Below are positions 32,484 through 45,953 of a DNA stretch of 64,000 bases, piece after piece. Position 1 is the first letter of the stretch. Every line of letters begins with the position of its first letter. The position numbers and the translations under genes are program-made. Below the pieces are notes generated by a model. That model had not been told where the DNA came from and searched no databases. It was given only the letters and a program-made list of their open reading frames with translations. The stretch lies in contig NZ_JAATJK010000001.1 in assembly GCF_011927785.1 (NCBI RefSeq), forward strand, positions 3,691,001 to 3,755,000. Direction: 5' to 3'. The stretch comes from Micromonospora profundi. GTDB lineage: Bacteria; Actinomycetota; Actinomycetes; Mycobacteriales; Micromonosporaceae.

Positions 32484-33467
32484 TCAAACCTTCTCCAGCA
32501 ACTCCAACACGACCCGTTCGGCCTCCTCACGCGGCGCCCCCGGGTCAAGTGACGCCACCACCCCGTCGTGGTAGAGGTCGACCACCCGGGGGTCCACGTA
32601 GGAGGTCCGTGCCACGGTGGCGGTGTTGCCGAGCAGTTCGGCGACCTCGCGCATCACCGCCACGACGGCCCTGCGCCGGGCGGTCACCGAACGCGCCGGG
32701 CCGACGGTCGCCAGCTCGGTGGCGGCCAGCACCGTGGCGTGCCAGGTGCGGAAGTCCTTGGCCGTCATCTCCCCGCCGCTGGCGTCACGCAGGTAGCCGT
32801 TCACCTCGTCACTGCGCACGTCGCGCCACTCCCTGCCGTCCCAGTAACCGAACAGCCGGTCCGCCTTACGCCGGCGGCGGCGCAGGTTGGTGAGCACCTG
32901 GCACAGCTCCGGGTCCTCGATACGGCGTACCTGCTCGATGCCGCCCTTGGCGGGAAACTCGAAGACCACGCAGCCGCCCCGGGACCGGGCGTGCTCGGGC
33001 CGCAGGGTGGACACACCGAACGTCGGCTCGTCGCCGGCCGCGTACTGGTCGCTGCCGACCCGGAACATCCCCATGTCGAGCAGCCGGGCCACTGTGGCCA
33101 ACACCCGATCGCGTCCGAGCCCTCGACCGTCCAGGTCGCGCCCCACCCGCTCGCGCAGCACCGGCAACCTGCGGGCCACCTCCAGCATGTGGTCGAACTT
33201 CGCCTCGTCCTGCTTCTCCCGCCACTGCGGGTGGTACACGTACTGCTTGCGGCCGGCCGCGTCGACGCCCGTCGCCTGGATGTGCCCGTTCGGGTACGGC
33301 GAGATCCAGACGTCCTGCCAGGCCGGTGGGATGACCAGCTCGCGCAGCCGGGCCAGGACGTCGGCGTCCTTGACCGGAGCGCCGGTCGGATCGACGAAGA
33401 GCCAGCCCTTGCCACGCCGCCGACGGCCGTACCCCGGCCGACCCGGATCGCTACGCCGCAACCGCAC
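32484..33467 (-). CDS. DNA topoisomerase IB (poxvirus-like type)
   Basis: A type IB topoisomerase relaxing DNA through a 3'-phosphotyrosyl intermediate, 327 residues. The catalytic Tyr is at about residue 290 in ARTSYVDPRVV, with the family's KDFRTWH (Lys/Arg/His) before it. The N-terminal domain has the typical IPPAWQDVWISPYPNGHIQATG and RKQYVYH. Small bacterial TopIB enzymes are scattered in actinomycetes. Unusually it is the last gene of the heptose/glycosyltransferase operon and overlaps the GT9 gene by 17 bp, so it is likely translated from the same mRNA. Confidence 0.93.
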   Translation of the reverse strand: MRLRRSDPGRPGYGRRRRGKGWLFVDPTGAPVKDADVLARLRELVIPPAWQDVWISPYPNGHIQATGVDAAGRKQYVYHPQWREKQDEAKFDHMLEVARRLPVLRERVGRDLDGRGLGRDRVLATVARLLDMGMFRVGSDQYAAGDEPTFGVSTLRPEHARSRGGCVVFEFPAKGGIEQVRRIEDPELCQVLTNLRRRRRKADRLFGYWDGREWRDVRSDEVNGYLRDASGGEMTAKDFRTWHATVLAATELATVGPARSVTARRRAVVAVMREVAELLGNTATVARTSYVDPRVVDLYHDGVVASLDPGAPREEAERVVLELLEKV

Positions 33468-34404
33468 CGGAGACCCGCACCACCCGTTCCACCTCAGCCA
33501 CCGCTGCCAGCACCTCGTCGAGGTGCACGGCCGCCAACGTCGGGTGGCTTCCTACCCCGTCCCACCTGGGCCAATCCCGGTCGCCGGCCCAGAGGACACG
33601 GTGCCGGGGCCGGTCCGGCGGCGGACCCCAGCGGGCCGGCGGCACCGGCCCGAACAGCACCACCGACGGTGTGCCGTAGCCGGTGGCCAGATGCGCCACG
33701 CCGGTGTCCCCGCTGACCACCAGCCGGGCATCGGCGACAAGCCCGGCCAGCGCGCCGAGGTCGGTACGGCCGGCAAGCACCGCGTCGGGTGCCAGGCCTG
33801 CCCCGTCGGCCACCCGGGCTGCCAACGCCCCCTCGTCGGCCGACCCGGTGAGCAGCACCCGGTGCCCCCGGTCGGTGAGCGCCCGCGCCAACGCGGCGAA
33901 CCGCTCGGCGGGCCACCGCTTCGCGGGGACGTTGCTGCCGGGATGCAGCACCGTGGCCCCGGCGGGCAGCCCGGTCGGCGCGGGCCGGCGCAGCGCGAGG
34001 TCAGTGCGGTCGGCAGGTATCCCGTACCAGGACAGCAGCCGGCACCACCGGTCCACCTCGTGCTCGTCGTCGACCCAGCGCGGGCCGTCGGCGAACCCGG
34101 CGTCGGCGTTGGCGAAGGCCAGCAGCCGCGCGGGACCTGCGGCGGCCAGCAGCCGGTGCGACTGCGGGCCGCGTCCGTGCAGGTTGACAGCGACCCCGGG
34201 AGCCGGGCCCGGCCGGGCCGGCCCGTCCAGCCCGGACGTGTCCACAAGCCTGTCGACGCCGCCGACCAGGTCGACGAGCGGTGCCAGCGCGGCGGGCGCG
34301 GCGAGCACCACCTCCCGGCCGGGGTACGCCGCCCGCAGCGCGCGCAGCGCGGGCACCGCCGTGACCAGGTCGCCGACGCCGAGGGCGCGCAGCACGAGGA
34401 TCAC
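33451..34404 (-). CDS. Glycosyltransferase family 9 (heptosyltransferase-like)
   Basis: 317 residues from GTG 34404. The N-terminus VILVLRALGVGDLVTAVPALRAL is the GT9 start, and the C-terminal half has TVLHPGSNVPAKRWP and VVSGDTGVAHLATGYGTPSVVLFGP, the nucleotide-sugar site. The family transfers heptose from ADP-heptose in Gram-negatives; here the operon encodes ADP-heptose enzymes, which supports a heptose donor. The start overlaps the SDR stop by four bases, and the frame upstream of 34404 reads through the SDR gene in another register and is not part of it. Confidence 0.9.
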   Translation of the reverse strand: MILVLRALGVGDLVTAVPALRALRAAYPGREVVLAAPAALAPLVDLVGGVDRLVDTSGLDGPARPGPAPGVAVNLHGRGPQSHRLLAAAGPARLLAFANADAGFADGPRWVDDEHEVDRWCRLLSWYGIPADRTDLALRRPAPTGLPAGATVLHPGSNVPAKRWPAERFAALARALTDRGHRVLLTGSADEGALAARVADGAGLAPDAVLAGRTDLGALAGLVADARLVVSGDTGVAHLATGYGTPSVVLFGPVPPARWGPPPDRPRHRVLWAGDRDWPRWDGVGSHPTLAAVHLDEVLAAVAEVERVVRVSGAVAA

Positions 34405-35102
34405 GGGTACGACGTCTCCTGCTCGGCGCAGACCACCAGCTCGCGGACCGCGCAGCCGGGCGGCTGGTTGAGCGCGAACATGATCGCCGCCGCCGTGTCC
34501 ACGGGGTCGTTGAGGTTGGCATCCGGTCCCGGTTTGTACTGCGGGTCGCGCTCGTCGAAGAACGCGGTCCGCATCCCTCCGGGAATGAGCAGGGTGACCC
34601 CGACCTGACCGGCCAGCTCGGCGGCGAGAGCACGGGTGAAGCCGACCACGCCGAACTTCGCCGCGCAGTACGCGGTGGCGTCGCTGACGGCCTTGACACC
34701 CAGGGTGGACGCGACCGTGACGATGCGGCCCCCGGAGGTCTGCAGGAACGGCAGGGCGGCCCGGATCACGGCGGCGGTGGCCAGCAGGTCCACGGCGACG
34801 ATCCGGTCCCAGGTCTCCCCCGGCACGTCGGCGAGGCGACCCGGCACGTCCATGCCGGCTGCGGTGACCACCGCGTCGAGGCCGCCGGCCTGCTCGGCGA
34901 GGTGCCGGGTGGCCTCCTCGGCGGCCCGGGTGTCGGCCAGGTCGCACTCCGTCCAGGACACTCCGTCGGCCGGCGGCCGCCGGTCCAGCACCAGCGGACG
35001 GCCACCGGACGCGGCCACAGCGGCGACCACCGCCGCGCCGAGACCGCTGGACCCGCCGGTGACCAGGACGGTGCGGCCAGCCCCAGGGTTCGTGGCGGTC
35101 AT
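34401..35102 (-). CDS. Classical short-chain dehydrogenase/reductase
   Basis: 233 residues. The cofactor motif is TGGSSGLG, and the catalytic residues are Ser in VTVASTLG and Tyr/Lys in YCAAK. It is a short classical SDR, not the extended HldD epimerase type. In this operon it probably oxidises or reduces a sugar or a sugar-linked intermediate (inference). It overlaps the HldE stop and the GT9 start by four bases each, indicating tight translational coupling. Confidence 0.9.
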   Translation of the reverse strand: MTATNPGAGRTVLVTGGSSGLGAAVVAAVAASGGRPLVLDRRPPADGVSWTECDLADTRAAEEATRHLAEQAGGLDAVVTAAGMDVPGRLADVPGETWDRIVAVDLLATAAVIRAALPFLQTSGGRIVTVASTLGVKAVSDATAYCAAKFGVVGFTRALAAELAGQVGVTLLIPGGMRTAFFDERDPQYKPGPDANLNDPVDTAAAIMFALNQPPGCAVRELVVCAEQETSYP

Positions 35103-36607
35103 CGGGTCCCCTCCCGCGTCATCGACACCGACACCGCGGCCGGCTGCCCGAATGCGGGCGCGGCCTCGGTGGTCTGCCCCGTGGAGCGGGCGATCATGTC
35201 GGTGGTGGACCGACCGTCCAGGTAGGGCACCACCACCGTGTTGCCACCCCAGCGGCGCAGGACCTCCGCCTCGGGCAGCGCTGTGGAGTCCCCGCCGCCG
35301 GTGGCGTAGTCCCCGCCCTTGACCCAGACGTCGGGTCGCACCCAGGACAGCACCGCGTCCGGGGTCGGCTCGTCGAAGATCAGGACGGCGTCCACGCAGC
35401 CCAGTGCGGCCAGCAGCCGCGCTCGGTCACCCTCGGCCATCACCGGCCGGTCCGGGCCCTTGAGCCCGGACACACTGGCGTCGGAGTTCACGCACACGAT
35501 CAAGCAGTCGCCCAACTGCCGGGCGGCCTGGAGGGTGGCCACATGCCCGGCGTGCAGCAGGTCGAAGCACCCTCCGGTGGCCACCACCGTGCCGCCGGCG
35601 GCCCGCACCTCGGCGAGCAGCGCCGCGACCGCCGCGACGCCCACCCGGTCACCGCCGCCGGGCAGGCTCGTTGCCGATCTCGGTGCCCGCGATGCCGTCT
35701 CGCCGGCCGGTCGCACCGGCGGCAGGACGGCCGCCACTCCCCCACCGGCCACGTACGCGGACGCCTCGGCGACAGCCGCCTGCACCGCCTCGGAGACCAG
35801 CGCACCCTCGGCCAGGGCCAGGCTGGCGGCGGCGGCGAACCGGTCGCCGGCCCCGCACGTGTCCCCCTCGGCGCTGCCCGGCGTGGGCACCACAAGCGGC
35901 GTCGAGCCGGCGTGGCAGAGCAGCGCGCCGTCGCCGCCCAGGGTCACCGCCACCGCGCCGGCCCGCCAGCGCCGCCGCAGGCCCTGGGCGCCCCGGGACG
36001 CGGTGGCCAGGCGCGACGCTCCGGGCAGCGCGGGGACCAGGTCGCGTACCTCCGCCTCGTTCGGGGTGGCCAGATGCACACCGGGTACGGCGGCCGGGCC
36101 GCGCGGGTGCGGGTCCCACACCACCGGCGCACGGGTGGCCGCCAGCGCGGCCCGCAGCGCGGGTTGCCGTGCCACACCTCGGCCGTAGTCGCTGACCAGC
36201 ACCGCCGAAGCCGCAGCGATCACCCGCAGCACCTCGTCGGAGGGCTGGCCCGGCTCACCGGAGGCGCCGCCACGGTCGTGGCGCAGCAGCACCCGGCCCC
36301 GCACCCGCAGACGGATCTTCTCCGGTGTCGCGCCGCGCAGCGCCAGCGGATACACCCGTACCCCGGCGGCGGCGAGCAGCGCGCTGAGCCGCGCGCCGCC
36401 GGCGTCGTCGGCGAGCGCTGTCACCAGCACCACGTCGGCGCCCTGCGCGGCGGCGAACACCGCCGCCAGGCCGGCGCCGCCCGGCCTGTCTACAGCCGAG
36501 GTCTCGTCCAGCACCGGCACCGGGGAGTCCGGGCAGAGGCGGTTCACCACCCCTTCCACGTCCCGGTCGAGCAGGGTGTCCCCGACCACCACCACGGGTC
36601 CCCTCAC
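35099..36607 (-). CDS. hldE: Bifunctional heptose 7-phosphate kinase / heptose 1-phosphate adenylyltransferase (HldE-type)
   Basis: 502 residues, two domains. The N-terminal PfkB/ribokinase domain has VVVGDTLLDRDVEG, GGAGLAAVFAA and the catalytic GDTCGAGDRF (about 245-255; canonical GAGDTF has Arg for Thr). The C-terminal cytidylyltransferase-like domain has LLHAGHV at 350-356 (HxGH), VNSDASVSGLKGPDRPV and VWVKGGDY. These match HldE, which makes heptose 1,7-bisphosphate and later ADP-heptose. GAGGAGGAAAGC precedes GTG 36607. It overlaps the SDR gene by four bases. Confidence 0.93.
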   Translation of the reverse strand: MRGPVVVVGDTLLDRDVEGVVNRLCPDSPVPVLDETSAVDRPGGAGLAAVFAAAQGADVVLVTALADDAGGARLSALLAAAGVRVYPLALRGATPEKIRLRVRGRVLLRHDRGGASGEPGQPSDEVLRVIAAASAVLVSDYGRGVARQPALRAALAATRAPVVWDPHPRGPAAVPGVHLATPNEAEVRDLVPALPGASRLATASRGAQGLRRRWRAGAVAVTLGGDGALLCHAGSTPLVVPTPGSAEGDTCGAGDRFAAAASLALAEGALVSEAVQAAVAEASAYVAGGGVAAVLPPVRPAGETASRAPRSATSLPGGGDRVGVAAVAALLAEVRAAGGTVVATGGCFDLLHAGHVATLQAARQLGDCLIVCVNSDASVSGLKGPDRPVMAEGDRARLLAALGCVDAVLIFDEPTPDAVLSWVRPDVWVKGGDYATGGGDSTALPEAEVLRRWGGNTVVVPYLDGRSTTDMIARSTGQTTEAAPAFGQPAAVSVSMTREGTR

Positions 36608-36623
36608 GCTTTCCTCCTCATCC

Positions 36624-37331
36624 TCACGCGTCGACCTGCCGTCTCGTACCGCCGTCGAGTACCACCTCGACACCGGTGCGCACCGGCCCCCCGGACGGAA
36701 GCCGACCGGCCGGCGCGGGCTCGACCGACACCGGACCGGCGGGTACGACGGCGGCGAGCGCGGCCGGCAGCTCCTGTTCGAGGTACTCGCACAGCAGGTG
36801 GCTGGTGACCAGGTGCAGTTCCTGCACGACCTGGGTGTCGGCCGACGGCACGGCGAGCGCCTCGTCGCACACGTCCGCGAGGGGATTGGGCACGGGGCCG
36901 GTGAGCGCCCAGGTGGTGAGGCCGACCTCGCGGGCTGCGCGCGCGGCGGCGAGCAGGTTGGGGCTGGCACCGCTCGTGCTGAGCAGCAGCAGGACGTCGC
37001 CCGGACGGCCGTGGGCGCGCACCTGGCGCGCGTAGACGGCGTCGTAGCCGTAGTCGTTGGCGATGGCGGTCACGGCGCTGGTCTCGGCGTGCAGGGCGAT
37101 GGCCGACAGCGGCTGACGGTCGTCGTGCAGCCTTCCCACCAGCTCGGCGGTGAGGTGCTGGGCCTCGGCGGCGCTGCCACCGTTGCCGGCCACCAGCAAC
37201 CGGCCGCCGCCGGCAAGCCTGTGCGCCAGGTCCGCGCCCCAGCGCGCCAGTTGCGGCTCACACCGCCGGTACGGCGTCAGCGCCGCGGCGAGGTTGTCCA
37301 GGTGGGTGTCGAGCAGACTGCCCGCCGGCAT
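36624..37331 (-). CDS. gmhA: Sedoheptulose 7-phosphate isomerase GmhA-like
   Basis: A SIS-domain enzyme, 235 residues from ATG 37331, that converts sedoheptulose 7-phosphate to D-glycero-D-manno-heptose 7-phosphate, the entry step of the heptose pathway. LLVAGNGGSAAEAQHLTAEL contains the family Ser and the His/Glu metal ligands; STSGASPNL is the second SIS loop; QELHLVTSHLLCEYLE holds the Gln/His ligands. It is longer at the C-terminus than E. coli GmhA (about 192). It overlaps the GT4 stop by one base (TGATG) and is 16 bp from hldE. Confidence 0.92.
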   Translation of the reverse strand: MPAGSLLDTHLDNLAAALTPYRRCEPQLARWGADLAHRLAGGGRLLVAGNGGSAAEAQHLTAELVGRLHDDRQPLSAIALHAETSAVTAIANDYGYDAVYARQVRAHGRPGDVLLLLSTSGASPNLLAAARAAREVGLTTWALTGPVPNPLADVCDEALAVPSADTQVVQELHLVTSHLLCEYLEQELPAALAAVVPAGPVSVEPAPAGRLPSGGPVRTGVEVVLDGGTRRQVDA

Positions 37332-38548
37332 CAGGCCACCACCCTCGTCGGCCGGTGTACCGCCGCCACCTCGCCGTAGATCTCGGCAAGGCGTTCCGCG
37401 GTGGCCGCCCACGCGTACCGCGACCTGGCGCGCTCGCTCGCCGCCGTGGCGTACCGGAAGCGCCGGATCCGATCGTCGAGCAGCCGCTGGATGGCGGTGG
37501 CCAGGGCGTGCGGGTCGCGGGCCGGCACGAGGTCACCTGTCGTCCCGTCGGCCACCGTGTCCCGGATGCCACCCACGGCGGTGCCGACGACAGGTACGCC
37601 GCAGGCCATCGCCTCCAGCGGGGTCAACCCGAACGGCTCGTACCAGGGTGCGGCGACCAGCAGGTCCGCCGAGCGGTACCAACGGCCCATCTCCTCCCGA
37701 GGCACCGCCCCGACGAGGTGGACGCGGTCGGCGACCCCGCACGAGTCGGCGAGCGCCCGCAGCCGCCGGGCGTACGGGTCGGTCTCCAGCAGCCCTTCGG
37801 GCGGCCCGCCGACCACCACGCATTCGGCGTCCGGGACCAGCGCCATGGCGCGTACCACGGTCTGGAAGCCCTTGCGTTCGACAAGCCGGCCCACCGTCAG
37901 GATCCGGGCCCGGCCGGGCTCGCGGTCGGCGGCCGGCCCGAGCGGGGTGAACGAGGTGAGGTTGACCCCGGAGGGGACGACTGTCATCCGCGACCGGGGT
38001 ACGCCCATCCGGACCAGCTCCCCGACCTCGTCGCGGCACTGGGCCACGACCCGGTCCACCGAACGACCCAGCTCCCGTTCGTAGGAGATGCGCCGGGCCG
38101 GGCTGGTGTCCTGCACGCCCTGGTAGCGGCGCTTGACGGTGCCCAGCGCGTGGTACGTCTGCACGACAGGCACCCCGGTCTGGCGGCCGGCCGTCAGTGC
38201 CGCCAGGCCGCTCATCCAGAAGTGGGCGTGGATCACCTCGGGGACCCAGTCGCCACCTCGCCACCGCTCGACGAGCCAGCGGCTGAACTCCCGCATGTGC
38301 GGCAACAGCGCGTCCTTGACGACCGGCTCGGCCGGGCCTGCGGGTACGTGCACCACGTCGTACCCGTCCGGGGTGCGGACGGTCACCGGCAGGTCGGGGG
38401 CGTCGCGGCGGGTGTAGACCCGCACCTCGTGCCCTGCTGCGGCGAGCGCGGCGGACAGTTCCGCGACGTGCGTGTTCTGGCCGCCGGCATCCTCGCCTCC
38501 GAGGATGGCGAGCGGGCTGGCGTGCTCCGAGATCATCGCGATCCGCAT
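37331..38548 (-). CDS. Glycosyltransferase family 4
   Basis: 405 residues, GT-B fold. The N-terminus IAMISEHASPLAILGGEDAGGQNTHV is close to sucrose-synthase/MshA-like GT4 enzymes. The C-terminal domain has ILTVGRLVERKGF and EPFGLTPLEAMACGVPVVGT (E-x7-E). The donor is probably a nucleotide sugar, and mannose or heptose fits the operon. It overlaps the next upstream glycosyltransferase by 16 bp and gmhA by one base. Confidence 0.9.
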   Translation of the reverse strand: MRIAMISEHASPLAILGGEDAGGQNTHVAELSAALAAAGHEVRVYTRRDAPDLPVTVRTPDGYDVVHVPAGPAEPVVKDALLPHMREFSRWLVERWRGGDWVPEVIHAHFWMSGLAALTAGRQTGVPVVQTYHALGTVKRRYQGVQDTSPARRISYERELGRSVDRVVAQCRDEVGELVRMGVPRSRMTVVPSGVNLTSFTPLGPAADREPGRARILTVGRLVERKGFQTVVRAMALVPDAECVVVGGPPEGLLETDPYARRLRALADSCGVADRVHLVGAVPREEMGRWYRSADLLVAAPWYEPFGLTPLEAMACGVPVVGTAVGGIRDTVADGTTGDLVPARDPHALATAIQRLLDDRIRRFRYATAASERARSRYAWAATAERLAEIYGEVAAVHRPTRVVA

Positions 38549-39507
38549 ACTTCCTCCTCCAGCAGCCGGTCCCAGTCAGCGAGGAAACGGTCGAGGCCGT
38601 ACCTGTCGCGCGCGGCGGTCCGCGCCGCCGCGCCCGCCTGACGTGCGGCGGCCGGTTCGGCGATGAACCGGCTGGCGGCGTCGAGCAGGGTGTCCATCCG
38701 GGTGGCGAGGGCCCCCGCCTCCGGGGGCACCGCTGTCACCGCCTCGGTGGTGGCGAGCGCGACGACAGGCATGCCGATCGCCATCGCCTCGATGAGGCTC
38801 AGCCCGAGTGACGTCCAGCGGCACAGGTGCAGGTACGCGCGCCGCTGTGCCAATTCGGCGTGCATCCGGTCCTGGGGCACGTCGTCGTGGCTGGTGATCC
38901 GGTCGGCGGGCAGCCCGAGGTGGTCGGCGAGGCCGGCGACGCCCATGCCGTACACGTCAAGCGGCGCGATCTCGGCGAAGCGGGGCAGCAGGTCGGTGCC
39001 GGTGACCCGTCCCCGCCGTACCGGCTCGTTGATGACCACGGCGAGCCGGTCCAGTTCCCCGGTGTACGACACGGCCGGCGCGACGATGCCGTGGTCCACG
39101 ACGCTGGTGCGGGCGGTGCCGGTGTCCCAGAAGATCTGGTTGAACCCGGTGACGTGGGCGATGAGCAGGTCGGTGCGGTCGGCCATCGGGTGGCGGGTGT
39201 TGGGCACGTCGCCCTTCGGCGTGTTGTGCTCCACGTAGATGGCGGGGACGTCGCGGCCGGGGCGGCGACCGAGCCACTGTTCGGCCAGGTCGACCTCTTC
39301 CGGGCGTTGCAGGATGACAAGGTCGACGTCGGTGTCCGGCAGGTCCTCGGGGGCGACCTCGACGGCGCTGTCCGGCCAGGGATAGGTGCGGGCCCGGCCG
39401 AGGCCGTACGGGCCGCGGTCGGGTGTCGTGGGGATCAGGTAGCGGTGGGCGCCGTGCACGAACGACGTGGTCCAGGAGCCGTGCACGTGCCAGAGCAGGA
39501 TGTTCAT
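38533..39507 (-). CDS. Glycosyltransferase, GT-B type
   Basis: 324 residues from ATG 39507. It begins with NILLWHVHGSWTTSFVHGAH and has AIYVEHNTPKGDVPNTRHP, a pattern seen in a group of actinobacterial glycosyltransferases found with heptose genes. The C-terminal LCRWTSLGLSLIEAMAIGMP is the nucleotide-sugar-binding region with its E-x2-A signature. It overlaps the fused phosphatase/GT9 stop by four bases and the GT4 start by 16 bp. The acceptor is unknown. Confidence 0.87.
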   Translation of the reverse strand: MNILLWHVHGSWTTSFVHGAHRYLIPTTPDRGPYGLGRARTYPWPDSAVEVAPEDLPDTDVDLVILQRPEEVDLAEQWLGRRPGRDVPAIYVEHNTPKGDVPNTRHPMADRTDLLIAHVTGFNQIFWDTGTARTSVVDHGIVAPAVSYTGELDRLAVVINEPVRRGRVTGTDLLPRFAEIAPLDVYGMGVAGLADHLGLPADRITSHDDVPQDRMHAELAQRRAYLHLCRWTSLGLSLIEAMAIGMPVVALATTEAVTAVPPEAGALATRMDTLLDAASRFIAEPAAARQAGAAARTAARDRYGLDRFLADWDRLLEEEVCGSR

Positions 39508-41075
39508 CGGCCGCCACCACCGCTGACGGTGAGCGTCCGGACCGCGTCGACCACCTCGGCCGGGTCGACGCCGCTGAGGCAGGGGTGCCCGGGGACCGGG
39601 CAGGTGGCCGCTCGGGTGTCGCGGCAGGGCGCGCCGGCGTCGCCGAGCCGGACTGTGGGCACCCGGTAGGGCCCCCACTGCCCGAAGGGGACAGTCGGCG
39701 CGAAGAGGCTCACGACCGGCACCCCGGCGGCTGCCGCCAGGTGCGCGGGGCCGGTGTTGCCGACCACCACCGCCCCGGCGTCGGCCACGATCGCGGCCAG
39801 CCCGGCGAGGTCGGTCCGACCGCCCAGGTCGATGCCGCCGGTCGCCGCGACGCGCGCGGTGACGGCCTGCTCGTCGGGGCCGCCGGTGACCAGCACCCGG
39901 TGCCCGGCGGCGGTAAGCGCCCCGGCGATCCGGGTCGCCAGCTCGGTCGGGCACGCCCGGCTCGACGCGGCGGACCCCGGGTGCAGCACCACGTAGCCGG
40001 GTTCGCCGGTGTCGGCCGGGCGTGGTGGCACCGAGTCGGAGCGGAGCCGGAGCACTGGTTCGTCGCCGGCAGGCAGTCGGAATCCGGCGGCGGCGGCGAG
40101 GGAGAGCGCGCGTTCGGGTTCGGGTACGCCCACCGGCACCCGGTGACGGATGTCCACGAGGGATCCCGGGTAGTCGTCGCTGATCGCGGCGATCCGTGCG
40201 ATCCCGGCCATCCGCAGCAGCAGCGCCAGCGGCAGCGCGGACTGGTGGAACGAGGTGAACACCACCGCCTGGTCGGCGCCGACGGCGGCGAGGCGGTCGG
40301 TCAGGGTCCGCATGGCGGCCGGATCTACGGGCCCCGGCGCGGGGTCGATCCACGGCAACGGATGCTCGATGATCTCGTCGACGCCGGGCAGCAGGTCGGC
40401 GGCCGCCCGCCCGCGTGGCCCGCACAGCAGCACCACCCGCTGCGCGCCGGCCGCGACGGCGCGGATCGCCGGCCCGGTCACCAGCACGTCGCCGGCCGAG
40501 TCCGAGCGCACCACGAGCGCCGTGCCCACCCGCTCACCGACCTGGACGGGCCGCACCGCCTCCTGGCGGCGCAGGATCTCCTCCACGGCCGACGGCAGGT
40601 CGCCGGCCACCCACCCGGCGGCAGCGATCTCCTCGGGTCGGGTCACCGGCGTCGGCACCAGCACACCTGCCGCGCCGGCTGCCAGCGCGGCGGCCACGTC
40701 GCGGCCGATGTCGCCCACCAGCACGCACCGCGACGCGCTCGTGCCCAACTCCTGGGCGGCGGCGTGCACCAGACCGGGCGCCGGCTTGCGGCAGTCGCAC
40801 CCGTCCGCGTCGTCGTGCGGGCAGACCAGCCAGGCGTCGAAGCGGCCCAGCAACTCCTCGACGCGGGCGTGCACCGCCCGCATCTGCTCCTCGCTGAAAA
40901 AGCCCCTGGCCAGGCCCGACTGGTTGGTCACCACGGCCAGGCGCAGCCCGGCGGCCCGCAATCGGTCCAGCGCCGCCCGCGCTCCGGGCACCGGCCGCAC
41001 CTTCTCCGGGTCGCCGTTGTACGGCACGTCCTCGATCAGGGTGCCGTCGCGGTCCAGCAGCACCGCGTCGTACAG
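39504..41075 (-). CDS. Fusion: heptose 1,7-bisphosphate phosphatase (GmhB-like HAD-IIIA) + glycosyltransferase family 9
   Basis: About 523 residues. Residues 1-170 form a GmhB/HisB-type HAD-IIIA phosphatase: LLDRDGTLIEDVPYNG (Asp pair), VVTNQSG, a zinc loop CPH-x5-CDCRKPAPG, and LVGDIGRDVAAA. Residues 190-520 form a GT9 domain: SDSAGDVLVTGPAIRA, LHPGSAASSRACP and VVVGNTGPAHLAAAAGVPVV. The two activities would dephosphorylate the heptose and transfer it. The start is uncertain: CTG 41075 gives a normal HAD N-terminus; in-frame GTG 41246, 41198 and 41063 are alternatives, none with a good ribosome binding site. It is the first gene of the operon. Confidence 0.88.
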   Translation of the reverse strand: MYDAVLLDRDGTLIEDVPYNGDPEKVRPVPGARAALDRLRAAGLRLAVVTNQSGLARGFFSEEQMRAVHARVEELLGRFDAWLVCPHDDADGCDCRKPAPGLVHAAAQELGTSASRCVLVGDIGRDVAAALAAGAAGVLVPTPVTRPEEIAAAGWVAGDLPSAVEEILRRQEAVRPVQVGERVGTALVVRSDSAGDVLVTGPAIRAVAAGAQRVVLLCGPRGRAAADLLPGVDEIIEHPLPWIDPAPGPVDPAAMRTLTDRLAAVGADQAVVFTSFHQSALPLALLLRMAGIARIAAISDDYPGSLVDIRHRVPVGVPEPERALSLAAAAGFRLPAGDEPVLRLRSDSVPPRPADTGEPGYVVLHPGSAASSRACPTELATRIAGALTAAGHRVLVTGGPDEQAVTARVAATGGIDLGGRTDLAGLAAIVADAGAVVVGNTGPAHLAAAAGVPVVSLFAPTVPFGQWGPYRVPTVRLGDAGAPCRDTRAATCPVPGHPCLSGVDPAEVVDAVRTLTVSGGGGR

Positions 41076-41354
41076 GACGCCCGGAAAGGACCCGACAGTG
41101 CCTGAGGGGGACCAGACAGACCCGGAAGCGACCCGGCCAGCACCCGCATAAACCCGGGCTGACCTGCGCTGATACGGATCATCCTGGTCCTGTCGCACAG
41201 CCGGCGGGTTCCCGACGCCTTCAGGAGTAAACGTCGTCGCCGGCACGGTGGGGCGGCGACTGCGCGGTGCCCCGCGTCGGCCTTACCCGCAGCCCCGGAG
41301 AAGCTAACCCGACCTGCCCGTTAGCCCCTGTCGCGGCGCGGGTATGGGAATCCA

Positions 41355-41804
41355 GTGGCGATAGTGGAGAAAGTGATCGACGCTCCCCCGCAGCAGGTGT
41401 TCGACGTACTTGCCGACGGGTGGACGTACAGCGACTGGGTGGTCGGGACGGCACACGTCCGCGACGTGGACGACGCCTGGCCGCGGGTGGGCAGCCAACT
41501 GCACCACCGGGCGGGGCCGTGGCCGTTCTCGTTGCAGGACGCCTCGACGGTGCTTGTCTGCGAGCCCCCGCACCGCCTGGTGCTGCGGGCCGGGCTCTGG
41601 CCCGCCGGCGAGGCGATCGTGGCGTTCACCCTGGAACCGGTCGACGGTGGCGCCACCACCCGGGTCCGTCTCGGGGAGGATTTCGCCGCCGGCCCGCTGC
41701 GCTGGGTCCGTACGAAGGTCAACGACCTCGTGCTGCACCTGCGTAACCGGGAGACGCTGGACCGGCTCTCCGACATCGCCACCCGGCAGAAGGGGCCGCA
41801 GTGA
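41355..41804 (+). CDS. SRPBCC/START-fold protein
   Basis: 149 residues. The start VAIVEKVIDAPPQQVFDVLADG and the later HRAGPWPFSLQDASTV, LVLRAGLWPAGEAIVAFTLEPVDGGATTRV pattern fit the SRPBCC superfamily of small hydrophobic-ligand-binding proteins. The ligand is unknown. The start is GTG 41355 (or the in-frame GTG at 41364); a poor ribosome binding site precedes it. It is divergent from the heptose operon. Confidence 0.85.
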   Translation: MAIVEKVIDAPPQQVFDVLADGWTYSDWVVGTAHVRDVDDAWPRVGSQLHHRAGPWPFSLQDASTVLVCEPPHRLVLRAGLWPAGEAIVAFTLEPVDGGATTRVRLGEDFAAGPLRWVRTKVNDLVLHLRNRETLDRLSDIATRQKGPQ

Positions 41805-42839: not shown

Positions 42840-44447
42840 TCAGTCTGCGTAGACGGCGCGATGGGCGGTGGCGATGGCCGCCGCGTACGCCCGCCCGGTG
42901 AGGGCGCGGTCGCGGGCCAGCGCGGCACGGGCCGCGTTCGCGCCCGGAGCGCCGTGCACCCCGCCGCCGGGGTGCGCCGACGCGCTGGCCAGGAAGAGCC
43001 TGTCCACCGGGGTGTCCGCGCGGCCCAGGCCGGGGATCGGGCGCAGGAACAGCTGCTGGTACGCGGCGGCGGTGCCGCCACCGAGCGCGCCGCCGACAAG
43101 GCTCGGGTTGCCCTTCTCCAGGTCGGCGGGCCCGGCCACGTGCCGGCCGACGACGAGCTGCCGGAAGCCCGGCGCCGCCGCCTCCAGCACGTCCTCCATC
43201 CGGCCCACGTGCCCGGCGATGTCCTCGGCCCGCCAGTCCCGCCGGAACGGCAGATGGGTGTACGCCCACAGCGACTCGGTGCCCGGCGGGGAGTGACTGG
43301 GGTCGGCCACCGACATCTGCCCGACCAGCAGGAACGGGTCCCGGGGCAGCTCGCCGCGGGCCAGCTCACCGGCGTAGGAGGTCAACCCGTTCAGGTCCGC
43401 GCCGAGGTGCACGGTGCCCGCGCCGGCGACCTGCCGGTTGGTCCACGGCACCGGCGCGGAGAGCGCCCAGTCCACCTTCAGTGTCGAGCCGTCCCACCGG
43501 AAGTGCGCCAGGTCCTCCACCAGCCGGCTCGGCAGCACTGCCGCCCCGACGAGGTCGAGGTAGAGCGCCGGTGCCGGCACGTCGGCGAGGACGGCCCGGC
43601 GGGCACGCCAGAGCGAGCCGCCGTCGGTGCGTACGCCCATGGCCCGACCCCGGGCGGTGAGAACCCGGTCGACGCGGGCGCCGTAGAGGATGCGGCCGCC
43701 GCGCTCCTGCAACCGGGCCACGAGCGCGTCGGTGATGCGCCGTGCGCCGCCGTCGGGCACCGGCCAGCCGACCTGCTGCCCGAGCATGGCCAGCAGCCAG
43801 CCGTACACGCCGGAGCCGGCCTCCTCGGGCGACAGGTCGGTGTGCAGGGCGCAGCCGGCGAGCAGCGCGGGCCCGCCGGGGCCGTCGAAGAGTTCGTCGC
43901 CGAGCTTGCGGACCGGCACCACAAGGCGCCGGCCCAGCCGCAGGGCGCCCGCGATCCGCAGTTGGCGCAGCAGGCCGAGCCCACCGCGCACGGGCGGGAA
44001 CGGGGTGGTGATGGTCGTGAGCATCGGGTCGGCCACGTCGAGCCAGTCGCCGTACGCGTCGAGCCAGCGCTTGCCGTCGCCGGGGGCGAACTGCTCCAGC
44101 GACGCGGCAGTGACGTCCGGATCCCTGTTGACCACCGCGGCCCGGCCGTCGGGGAGCAGGTGCGCCAGCACGTCGGGGGCGTGACGCCAGCGCAGCCCGT
44201 ACTGGTCCAGGCCGAGCTCGTGCAGCACTGGTGACGCGTACCCGAGGGGGTAGAACGAGCTGTAGAGGTCGCTGAGGTAGCCCGGCGCTGTCACCTCGGC
44301 GGACTGGACCGCGCCGCCGGGCACCGCTGTGGCCTCCAGCACCACCACGTCCCATCCGGCGTCGGCGAGCAGGTTGGCCGCGACGAGACCGTTGTGGCCG
44401 GCCCCGACGACGACGGCGTCCGCGCTCTGCGCGCCGGTGGTGGTCAT
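42840..44447 (-). CDS. Phytoene-desaturase-like FAD-dependent oxidoreductase
   Basis: 535 residues. The N-terminal dinucleotide fold is ADAVVVGAGHNGLVAANLL with VVLEA at the end of strand 2, and the C-terminal FAD motif is HPGGGVHGAPG. The length and the central region (RRITDALVARLQERGGRILY) match the CrtI-related family of uncharacterised NAD(P)/FAD proteins rather than true carotenoid desaturases. No other carotenoid gene is near. It is divergent from an aldehyde dehydrogenase gene with only about 60 bp between starts, so they may be co-regulated. Confidence 0.9.
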   Translation of the reverse strand: MTTTGAQSADAVVVGAGHNGLVAANLLADAGWDVVVLEATAVPGGAVQSAEVTAPGYLSDLYSSFYPLGYASPVLHELGLDQYGLRWRHAPDVLAHLLPDGRAAVVNRDPDVTAASLEQFAPGDGKRWLDAYGDWLDVADPMLTTITTPFPPVRGGLGLLRQLRIAGALRLGRRLVVPVRKLGDELFDGPGGPALLAGCALHTDLSPEEAGSGVYGWLLAMLGQQVGWPVPDGGARRITDALVARLQERGGRILYGARVDRVLTARGRAMGVRTDGGSLWRARRAVLADVPAPALYLDLVGAAVLPSRLVEDLAHFRWDGSTLKVDWALSAPVPWTNRQVAGAGTVHLGADLNGLTSYAGELARGELPRDPFLLVGQMSVADPSHSPPGTESLWAYTHLPFRRDWRAEDIAGHVGRMEDVLEAAAPGFRQLVVGRHVAGPADLEKGNPSLVGGALGGGTAAAYQQLFLRPIPGLGRADTPVDRLFLASASAHPGGGVHGAPGANAARAALARDRALTGRAYAAAIATAHRAVYAD

Positions 44448-44507: not shown

Positions 44508-45953
44508 ATGCAGCGCCGCATGTACACGGTTGCGCAGTTGGTGGGCGGAGTGTGGGGCACCGGCGGTGCGGGCGGCGAACTTGTCGTCCACGATCCGGCG
44601 GACGGCTCCCCGGTCAGCTCGGTGCCGGTGGCCACCGCCGACGAGGTGGGCAAGGCGGCGCAGGCGGCGCGTGAGGCGGCGGCCGAGTGGGCGGCGACCG
44701 CGCCGGCCGAACGGGCGGCGGCGCTGCATCGGGCGGCGGACGCGGTGGCGGCTGCCATCGACGAGCTGGCGGCGGCGGTGACCGCCGAGATGGGCAAGCC
44801 TCTCGCGGACGCGCGGGGCGGGGTCGAGGCGGGCATCGGCACCCTCCGACAGTACGCGGAGCTGGCCCCGCTGCGCGGCGGGCGGACCCTGCACGGCGCG
44901 GTGGACGCGATGGACTTCATGACCCCGCAGCCGCGTGGTGTCGTGGCCGCGATCACCCCGTGGAACGATCCGGTGGCGGTGTCCTGCGGGCTGCTCGGCG
45001 CGGCACTGGTCACCGGCAACGTGGTGCTCTACAAGCCCAGCGAGCGGACGCCCGCCACGGGCTGGCTGCTGGCCCGCGCCCTGGACGAGGCGCTGCCGGC
45101 GGGTGTGCTGTCGCTGCTCACCGGCGGCCCGGAGGTCGGCGCGGCGCTTGCCGCCCAGGACGTCGACGTGGTGGCGCACGTGGGTTCCACAGCTACCGGA
45201 CGGGCGATCGCCGCCGCCGCGGCCCGCACCGGCGCGAAGGTGCTGCTGGAGAACGGTGGCAGTGACCCGTTGATCGTCGACGCGGACGTCGACCCGCTGT
45301 GGGCGGCCGGTCAGGCCGCGCTCGGTGCGTTCGCCAACGCCGGGCAGATCTGCGTGGCGGTGGAGCGGATCTACGTGCACCGGCAGGTGGCCGAGGATTT
45401 CGTGGCAGCGCTCGTGGGGCACGCCGACGCGCTGCGGGTCGGGCCGGGCCGGGATCCGGGCACCGAGCTGGGCCCGCTTGTCGACAGGCGGCACCGCGAC
45501 CACGTGCACGGTCAGGTGACGACGGCGGTTGCCGACGGCGCGCGGATCCTGGTCGGCGGCGAGGTGCCGGACGGGCCGGGCGCGTTCTACCCGGCCACTG
45601 TGGTCACGGACTGCCGCCACGACATGCCGCTGGTACGCGAGGAGACCTTCGGGCCTGTCGCGCCGGTGGTGGTCGTCGACTCGTTCGACGAGGCCCTGCG
45701 CTGTGCGGCGGACTCACCGTACGGCCTGGCCGCCACGGTGCTGACCGGGTCGATGAGTCATGCCCAGCGCGCCTGGCGGGAGCTGCCGGTCGGCACCGTG
45801 AAGGTCAACGCGGTGTTCGGCGGCGCGCCGGGCGGTGCGGCGCACCCACGCCGGGCCAGTGGGCACGGCTTCGGGTACGGCCCGGAGTTGCTCGACGAGT
45901 TCACCGCTACGAAGGCGGTGCACATCGAGGCGCCGGGCGGCGGCCACTGGTGA
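44508..45953 (+). CDS. Aldehyde dehydrogenase family protein
   Basis: 481 residues, an NAD(P)-dependent oxidation of an aldehyde to its acid. Motifs run in order: VVAAITPWNDPVAV, VLYKPSERTPATG, GSTATG, the general base Glu in LLENGGSDP, the catalytic Cys in NAGQICVAVERIY, and EETFGPVAPVV. All catalytic residues are present. ATG 44508 (or 44520) starts it. It is divergent from the FAD oxidoreductase gene. The substrate is unknown. Confidence 0.92.
   Translation: MQRRMYTVAQLVGGVWGTGGAGGELVVHDPADGSPVSSVPVATADEVGKAAQAAREAAAEWAATAPAERAAALHRAADAVAAAIDELAAAVTAEMGKPLADARGGVEAGIGTLRQYAELAPLRGGRTLHGAVDAMDFMTPQPRGVVAAITPWNDPVAVSCGLLGAALVTGNVVLYKPSERTPATGWLLARALDEALPAGVLSLLTGGPEVGAALAAQDVDVVAHVGSTATGRAIAAAAARTGAKVLLENGGSDPLIVDADVDPLWAAGQAALGAFANAGQICVAVERIYVHRQVAEDFVAALVGHADALRVGPGRDPGTELGPLVDRRHRDHVHGQVTTAVADGARILVGGEVPDGPGAFYPATVVTDCRHDMPLVREETFGPVAPVVVVDSFDEALRCAADSPYGLAATVLTGSMSHAQRAWRELPVGTVKVNAVFGGAPGGAAHPRRASGHGFGYGPELLDEFTATKAVHIEAPGGGHW

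Follow-up and report, generated by a model that had tools for sequence, protein, structure and literature searches.

What does an operon of lipopolysaccharide (LPS)-type heptose enzymes and glycosyltransferases build in Micromonospora profundi, an actinomycete? The operon lies in a stretch of 64,000 nucleotides of contig NZ_JAATJK010000001.1 (positions 3,691,001 to 3,755,000; the window, whose coordinates are used below unless the contig is named), where seven co-directional genes run on the minus strand from 41075 to 33451, as judged from open reading frame calls, Pfam and NCBIfam. Gene order and protein families suggest that this is the cwg ("cell wall glycan") operon of actinomycetes in its Micromonospora form. 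It probably builds an oligosaccharide containing D-glycero-D-manno-heptose (D,D-heptose), with an envelope glycan or a lipid carrier as the likeliest site of attachment. The sequence-based part of the argument comprises gene content, families and folds, synteny with cwg, the lack of an HldD match over cut-off and conserved promoter-like sites; from it we infer the substrates, the order of transfer, the acceptor, the reaction of an accompanying dehydrogenase and the regulation.

The first gene, read on the minus strand as are all seven, encodes a GmhB-like HAD phosphatase fused to a GT9 enzyme (GT9a; 41075-39504; PF00702 and PF01075) and corresponds to CwgD plus CwgE. Its start codon is uncertain: the one at 41075 is CTG, and a GTG at 41063 or a start further upstream is possible. 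It is followed by GTx (39507-38533), a GT-B glycosyltransferase of a GT4-like, cluster-specific family that is CwgF by position, and by an MshA-like GT4 glycosyltransferase (38548-37331; PF00534/PF13439; CwgG). Next come GmhA, a SIS-type sedoheptulose-7-phosphate isomerase (37331-36624; TIGR00441; CwgH), and HldE, a heptose-7-phosphate kinase joined to a heptose-1-phosphate nucleotidyltransferase (36607-35099; PF00294 and PF01467; CwgI). A classical short-chain dehydrogenase/reductase (SDR) of 233 amino acids (35102-34401; PF00106, 124.3 bits) stands between HldE and the last gene, which encodes GT9b, a GT9 heptosyltransferase-family enzyme (34404-33451; PF01075, 100.8 bits; CwgJ). The original prediction had listed GmhA, HldE-type and GmhB-like genes with four glycosyltransferase domains and mostly overlapping borders of 1-16 bp. 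All of these are in place: the domains are two GT9, one GT4 and one GT4-like GT-B, and, with the starts given, five of the six borders overlap (by 4, 16, 1, 4 and 4 bp), a 16-bp gap separating GmhA from HldE. The SDR at 35102-34401 had been left out of that gene set.

Reportedly described in 2002, the cwg operon offers a counterpart to nearly this whole arrangement. The order HAD-GT9-GTx-GT4-GmhA-HldE-GT9 (cwgD to cwgJ in Streptomyces coelicolor) is also that of the window, the match resting on gene order, families and published gene names, and the same core order is found in named Streptomyces loci. Four loci (L209, L215, L230 and L237, among them Streptomyces carminius and S. megasporus) each consist of exactly twelve genes, whose order agrees with the cwg names. 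The 12-gene operon SCO6179-SCO6190 of S. coelicolor is a sigma-E target predicted to act in cell wall glycan synthesis, was one of the two earliest in vivo targets to be identified for this envelope-stress sigma factor, and is induced by vancomycin with partial dependence on sigma-E (PMC6767563). The gene names cwgB-E and cwgG-J are given elsewhere, with SCO6186 as a putative phosphoheptose isomerase and SCO6187 as a bifunctional synthase/transferase (PMC5839063), and cwgE appears as a putative heptosyl transferase of the vancomycin-induced operon (PMC5882110). The literature found, most of it in the form of listings or passages, holds no statement of the cwg product and no report of ADP-heptose for cwg. 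Given the correspondence to S. coelicolor cwg, the wide occurrence of the operon in Actinomycetes and the published heptose chemistry of actinomycetes, the gene set is not the surprise for this lineage that it was first taken to be.

The window differs from cwg in the SDR inserted before the last GT9 gene and in the fusion of the phosphatase to GT9a, whereas elsewhere the phosphatase is fused to a GT2 or free. An epimerase/dehydratase, a carbamoyltransferase and three GT2-type genes of the 12-gene operon were not found at the window locus; in all, five cwg genes out of twelve are missing in the Micromonospora form. The one carbamoyltransferase found elsewhere in the genome was rejected as the missing cwgB: its identity to the cwg type is at most 39%, while the cwg types share at least 58.7% among themselves.

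Family and structure matches bear out an ADP-heptose-type enzyme set, heptosyltransferase-family enzymes included. The closest PDB structure to the phosphatase part is 4pnh (D,D-heptose 1,7-bisphosphate phosphatase), followed by 3l8h, whose deposited name is putative HAD hydrolase; the phosphatase part carries the DxD motif LLDRDGT and the zinc loop CPHDDADGCDCRKP (a C-x-H / C-x-C zinc-type motif). Residues 37-187 of GmhA align to the phosphoheptose isomerase structures 2xbl and 2x3y (E about 1e-42), and the motif [QEHD]E.HL...H, which we take to be catalytic, is present in 52 of 55 orthologues. For HldE, the kinase domain is nearest to 4e84, a heptose-7-phosphate kinase, and the nucleotidyltransferase domain to 5x9q, deposited as a putative cytidylyltransferase, which we take to be an HldC. 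GAGD is found in all 57 rows counted for this type of HldE (HldE-A), and HxGH in all eight of the commonest forms listed. GT9b aligns with E. coli heptosyltransferase II (1psw, E 7.7e-16), and the D-T-G-x-x-H motif is intact in all 50 proteins that carry the GT9b label; N-[ST]-G-x-x-H replaces it in 61 of 62 labelled GT9a. The GT4 enzyme scores 252.3 bits against TIGR03449 (cut-off 462.5). Among the fold neighbours of GTx are a methylmannose polysaccharide mannosyltransferase, SdgB and GtfA, the latter two being glycosyltransferases of serine-rich proteins.

Which heptose would such enzymes provide? In LPS synthesis HldD accompanies GmhA, HldE and GmhB, and a profile search found no match to HldD over cut-off in the M. 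profundi genome (one contig, 6.93 Mb), nor in any of 296 Actinomycetes genomes, with at most seven candidates scored per genome; among 14 control genomes, E. coli and Caulobacter were positive. The genome's best match to the HldD profile, at 115 bits against a cut-off of 274.6, was set aside, being by eye a GalE followed by galactokinase. Because HldD was not found, the predicted donor is a nucleoside diphosphate (NDP)-D-glycero-D-manno-heptose. The SDR was considered as a possible stand-in for HldD. It has 233 residues vs the 316 positions of the HldD profile, its PDB matches are general dehydrogenases, and the 120 listed of its 7997 homologues bear general names only; the catalytic triad S132-Y145-K149 is invariant in 25 aligned orthologues. 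It is a classical SDR, not itself an HldD. Orthologues of at least 50% identity are present in all 31 Micromonosporaceae regions with HldE-A and in 58 of 80 loci from named genomes. Across the class, 20 of 26 regions with HldE-A have the SDR; it is absent from six, including L144, which is cut by the region end. The HldE of the window has the motif YLDGRSTT, which is STTR5-like in its arginine at position 5 and has Y instead of F/L as first residue. Two commentaries (PMC11461863, PMC11573728) on the work of Tang et al. 2024 state that (F/L)XXGRSTT marks heptose nucleotidyltransferases that also use CTP and UTP. Because the first residue is Y, the motif is no more than suggestive of CTP and UTP use by the window enzyme.

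The survey of HldE neighbourhoods across the Micromonosporaceae that the original prediction had proposed points to a coherent unit. HldE relatives are present in 81 of 121 genomes, counting a second type (HldE-B) and weak single-domain matches, and 40 family regions were hand-picked from these matches, 31 with HldE-A and nine picked for HldE-B. All seven core gene types are present in 29 of the 31 HldE-A regions; the grouping is therefore beyond chance. In the wider class, GTx was used as the marker glycosyltransferase and is present in 72 of 296 Actinomycetes genomes; the 30 regions taken around it hold HldE-A in 26, a carbamoyltransferase in 21 and the epimerase/dehydratase in 19. A scan of named genomes gave Micromonospora lupini as the closest. 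In this set, the best 80 of 585 confirmed stretches by identity, in which Micromonospora is over-represented and some loci are cut by short contigs, GT4 is found in 80 loci, GmhA in 79, GT9a in 78, the HldE kinase in 77, HAD in 74, GT9b in 68 and the carbamoyltransferase in 39.

In a tree of GTx and GT4 (81 rows) the Micromonosporaceae form one group, from which Streptomyces and Streptosporangiaceae are separate, a pattern compatible with mostly vertical descent. In Micromonospora, Salinispora and Plantactinospora the lack of the carbamoyltransferase looks like a derived state, the label for this absence taking in loci cut by contig ends (e.g. L165, L178, L195, L197 and L217). Two closely similar clusters (L192 and L193) stand about 180 kb apart in M. 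mirobrigensis, one with and one without the carbamoyltransferase, and look recent or converted. In five loci of a second family of the same order (L142, L143, L144, L149 and L150), the GTx-GT4 pair is set apart, some 4-5 kb upstream of the remaining cluster genes, with an epimerase and a carbamoyltransferase in between.

The region upstream of the operon holds two conserved blocks. On the minus strand, P1 (41283..41308) reads GTTAGC-N14-GGGTAA and P2 (41208..41232) reads GTTTAC-N13-GGGAAC, the latter being the sole match to GTTTAC-N12..15-GGGAAC on either strand of the window. Across operons the boxes are nearly invariant and the spacers variable. Among the SigB-family promoters of S. coelicolor are GTTAGA-N13-GGGTAC and GTGTAG-N14-GGGAAC; for B. 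subtilis the consensus is GTTTAA-N12-14-GGG(A/T)A(A/T) (PMC8346170). The blocks read better as SigB-family-type promoters than as an RNA leader. Upstream sequence was available for 33 Micromonosporaceae operons without the carbamoyltransferase, the window operon among them; 31 have P1 and 32 have P2 (both in 30, P2 alone in two, P1 alone in one). These counts are not independent, as the species are related; eight of 81 loci had no usable upstream stretch. A general SigB-type pattern has a frequency of 0.05 per 450 nt in these loci. P1 is found in four of 23 operons that begin with the carbamoyltransferase gene, and neither site in 15 that begin with the epimerase gene or in two others. The Micromonospora form would differ here from S. 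coelicolor cwg, with its sigma-E promoter. In S. coelicolor, salt is reported to induce cwgA and not sigE (PMC13011467).

Other explanations of the upstream block were rejected. No Rfam match at gathering level was found in the window (two leader matches had E values of 1.1 and 9.1), folded singly, the sequence was less stable than its shuffles on average, and 13 of 60 column shuffles equalled or beat the alignment fold; an RNA leader or riboswitch is not indicated. Nor is the block a dispersed repeat, a 28-nt pattern with up to three mismatches being found once in the genome. The window has a single P1 match on the plus strand, a divergent P1-like site (GTTAGC-N14-GGGTAT, 41320..41345). It points towards a small gene, SRPBCC-like by eye (41355-41804), so this gene and the operon may be under shared stress control.

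The same genome has a second HldE locus 1.8 Mb away (L017, contig positions 5512600-5516530), in which HldE-B is followed by a GT2 gene, with a convergent GT9 gene. It resembles the main operon in its HldE and GT9 families and differs in that HldE-B is a separate type, 41% identical to HldE-A over residues 147-493, with a long insertion within the kinase domain and a kinase motif that is GGAANT vs mostly GGAGLA in HldE-A. A score of 202.2 puts its nucleotidyltransferase domain above the NCBIfam cut-off of 181.5. In six loci (L086, L131, L136, L145, L154 and L224), B-type genes are found no more than 20 kb from genes of the main cluster, which suggests that the main cluster and the B-type genes are one system.

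Together these observations suggest how the operon might work. With no HldD found, the heptose would be retained in the D,D form. The two GT9 and two GT4-like enzymes would link heptose into a short oligosaccharide, for which an envelope glycan or the lipid carrier of such a glycan is the likeliest acceptor; the SDR would carry out one oxidation or reduction, on the sugar or on the acceptor; and in Micromonospora SigB-family stress sigma factors would drive expression. Thus the original prediction stands as to the enzyme set and an envelope glycan as the likeliest product; the SDR, the lack of an HldD, the second HldE locus and the promoters were not part of it, and its element of surprise is lost.

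Several results weigh against this interpretation. The window GmhA (164.6 bits against TIGR00441, cut-off 209.45), HldE (full length 252.9/521; domain I 128.4/345; domain II, rfaE_dom_II, 171.5/181.5), GmhB-like part (126.8 against PRK08942, cut-off 178) and GT9 enzymes are all under NCBIfam equivalog cut-offs, so heptose specificity is not proven; of the heptose enzymes scored in the genome, solely the HldE-B nucleotidyltransferase domain passes. The correspondence to cwg was drawn from order and published names. The SDR is absent from all 15 named Streptomycetaceae loci that hold HldE and is therefore not essential to a product shared with them. No sigma-E site (GNAAC-N15..18-CGTC) was found within 400 bp upstream of the operon, in the window or in the Micromonosporaceae relatives scanned; the strict pattern is present in two of 62 upstream stretches (L214 and L223, both from outside the Micromonosporaceae), a looser one matches L180 and L188, and just three of 19 epimerase-gene upstream regions have a sigma-E-type site. 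Flippase, polymerase and ligase genes were not seen in the operon, so that support for the envelope as destination comes from the S. coelicolor literature.

The low scores, the N for D in nearly all GT9a proteins and the difference in kinase motif between HldE-A and HldE-B could mean that the LPS-type names mislead and that the true substrate is some other heptulose or hexulose phosphate, the GT9 enzymes then using the corresponding sugar nucleotide. We think this unlikely: three pathway proteins and two GT9 enzymes co-occur with their catalytic motifs retained, and GmhA aligns closely to solved phosphoheptose isomerases. An intracellular or secreted small molecule, or a storage glycan, comparable to septacidin, hygromycin B or the mycobacterial methylated polysaccharides, would agree with the fact that no exporter was seen in the operon, with the use of heptose by actinomycetes in the two antibiotics and with the mannosyltransferase among the fold neighbours of GTx. 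Class-wide presence and a tree that largely follows families are unlike a specialised-metabolite cluster, and S. coelicolor cwg belongs to the envelope-stress regulon; such a product is rather improbable.

Modification of proteins, by O-heptosylation of the autotransporter type with the GT-B enzymes extending the glycan, has a precedent in E. coli protein glycosylation, which uses NDP-heptose through a heptosyltransferase. SdgB and GtfA, fold neighbours of GTx, would also accord with it. No acceptor-protein gene is prominent among the 45 largest recurrent neighbour families listed, and we consider this the account least likely to be correct. A D,D-heptose oligosaccharide for the envelope thus remains our preferred reading.

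Heptose pathways are known from other settings. The LPS inner-core pathway (GmhA, HldE, GmhB, HldD and WaaC/WaaF) shares with the window three of its four sugar-nucleotide proteins and two GT9-family enzymes; the window differs in having no HldD over cut-off, in scores under the equivalog cut-offs and in its extra GT4-like enzymes and SDR. Septacidin and hygromycin B reportedly draw on a heptose pathway in Streptomyces, and tridomain NDP-heptose synthetases are said to exist in actinobacteria. The likeness to the former is a heptose derived from sedoheptulose-7-phosphate in an actinomycete, whereas those products are small-molecule antibiotics and the window cluster is class-wide, with four glycosyltransferase domains. 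In Rhodococcus, a gmhD mutant has no capsule material and gmhD is a guanosyltransferase, hence GDP-heptose (PMC12298843). NDP-heptose enzymes are already known in Gram-positives, and the operon is a variant of cwg, not a new type of system.

The D,D-heptose reading turns the vague annotation "predicted cell wall glycan" into a concrete chemical question, and if it is true a large Gram-positive group joins the expected makers of NDP-heptoses, which are sensed by vertebrate ALPK1. A broader proposal is speculative and more doubtful than not: about a quarter of sampled Actinomycetes would place on the envelope a D,D-heptose oligosaccharide made by GT9 enzymes and O-carbamoylated in most lineages, as a Gram-positive counterpart of the LPS inner core; in Micromonospora it would be uncarbamoylated and under SigB-type stress control, with an STTR5-like HldE also giving CDP- and UDP-heptose, expected to be potent ALPK1 agonists.

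Among the flanking genes (28-48 kb of the window, partly annotated only), none was recognised as an antibiotic gene. A CrtO-like FAD oxidoreductase (42840-44447, minus strand) and an aldehyde dehydrogenase (44520-45953, plus strand) are recurrent neighbours of the cluster, the latter in 17 of the 31 Micromonosporaceae regions with HldE-A. Downstream, a DNA topoisomerase IB gene (33467-32484, minus strand) overlaps the last gene of the operon by 17 bp and is retained as a neighbour in many Micromonospora loci; it may therefore be co-transcribed with the operon.

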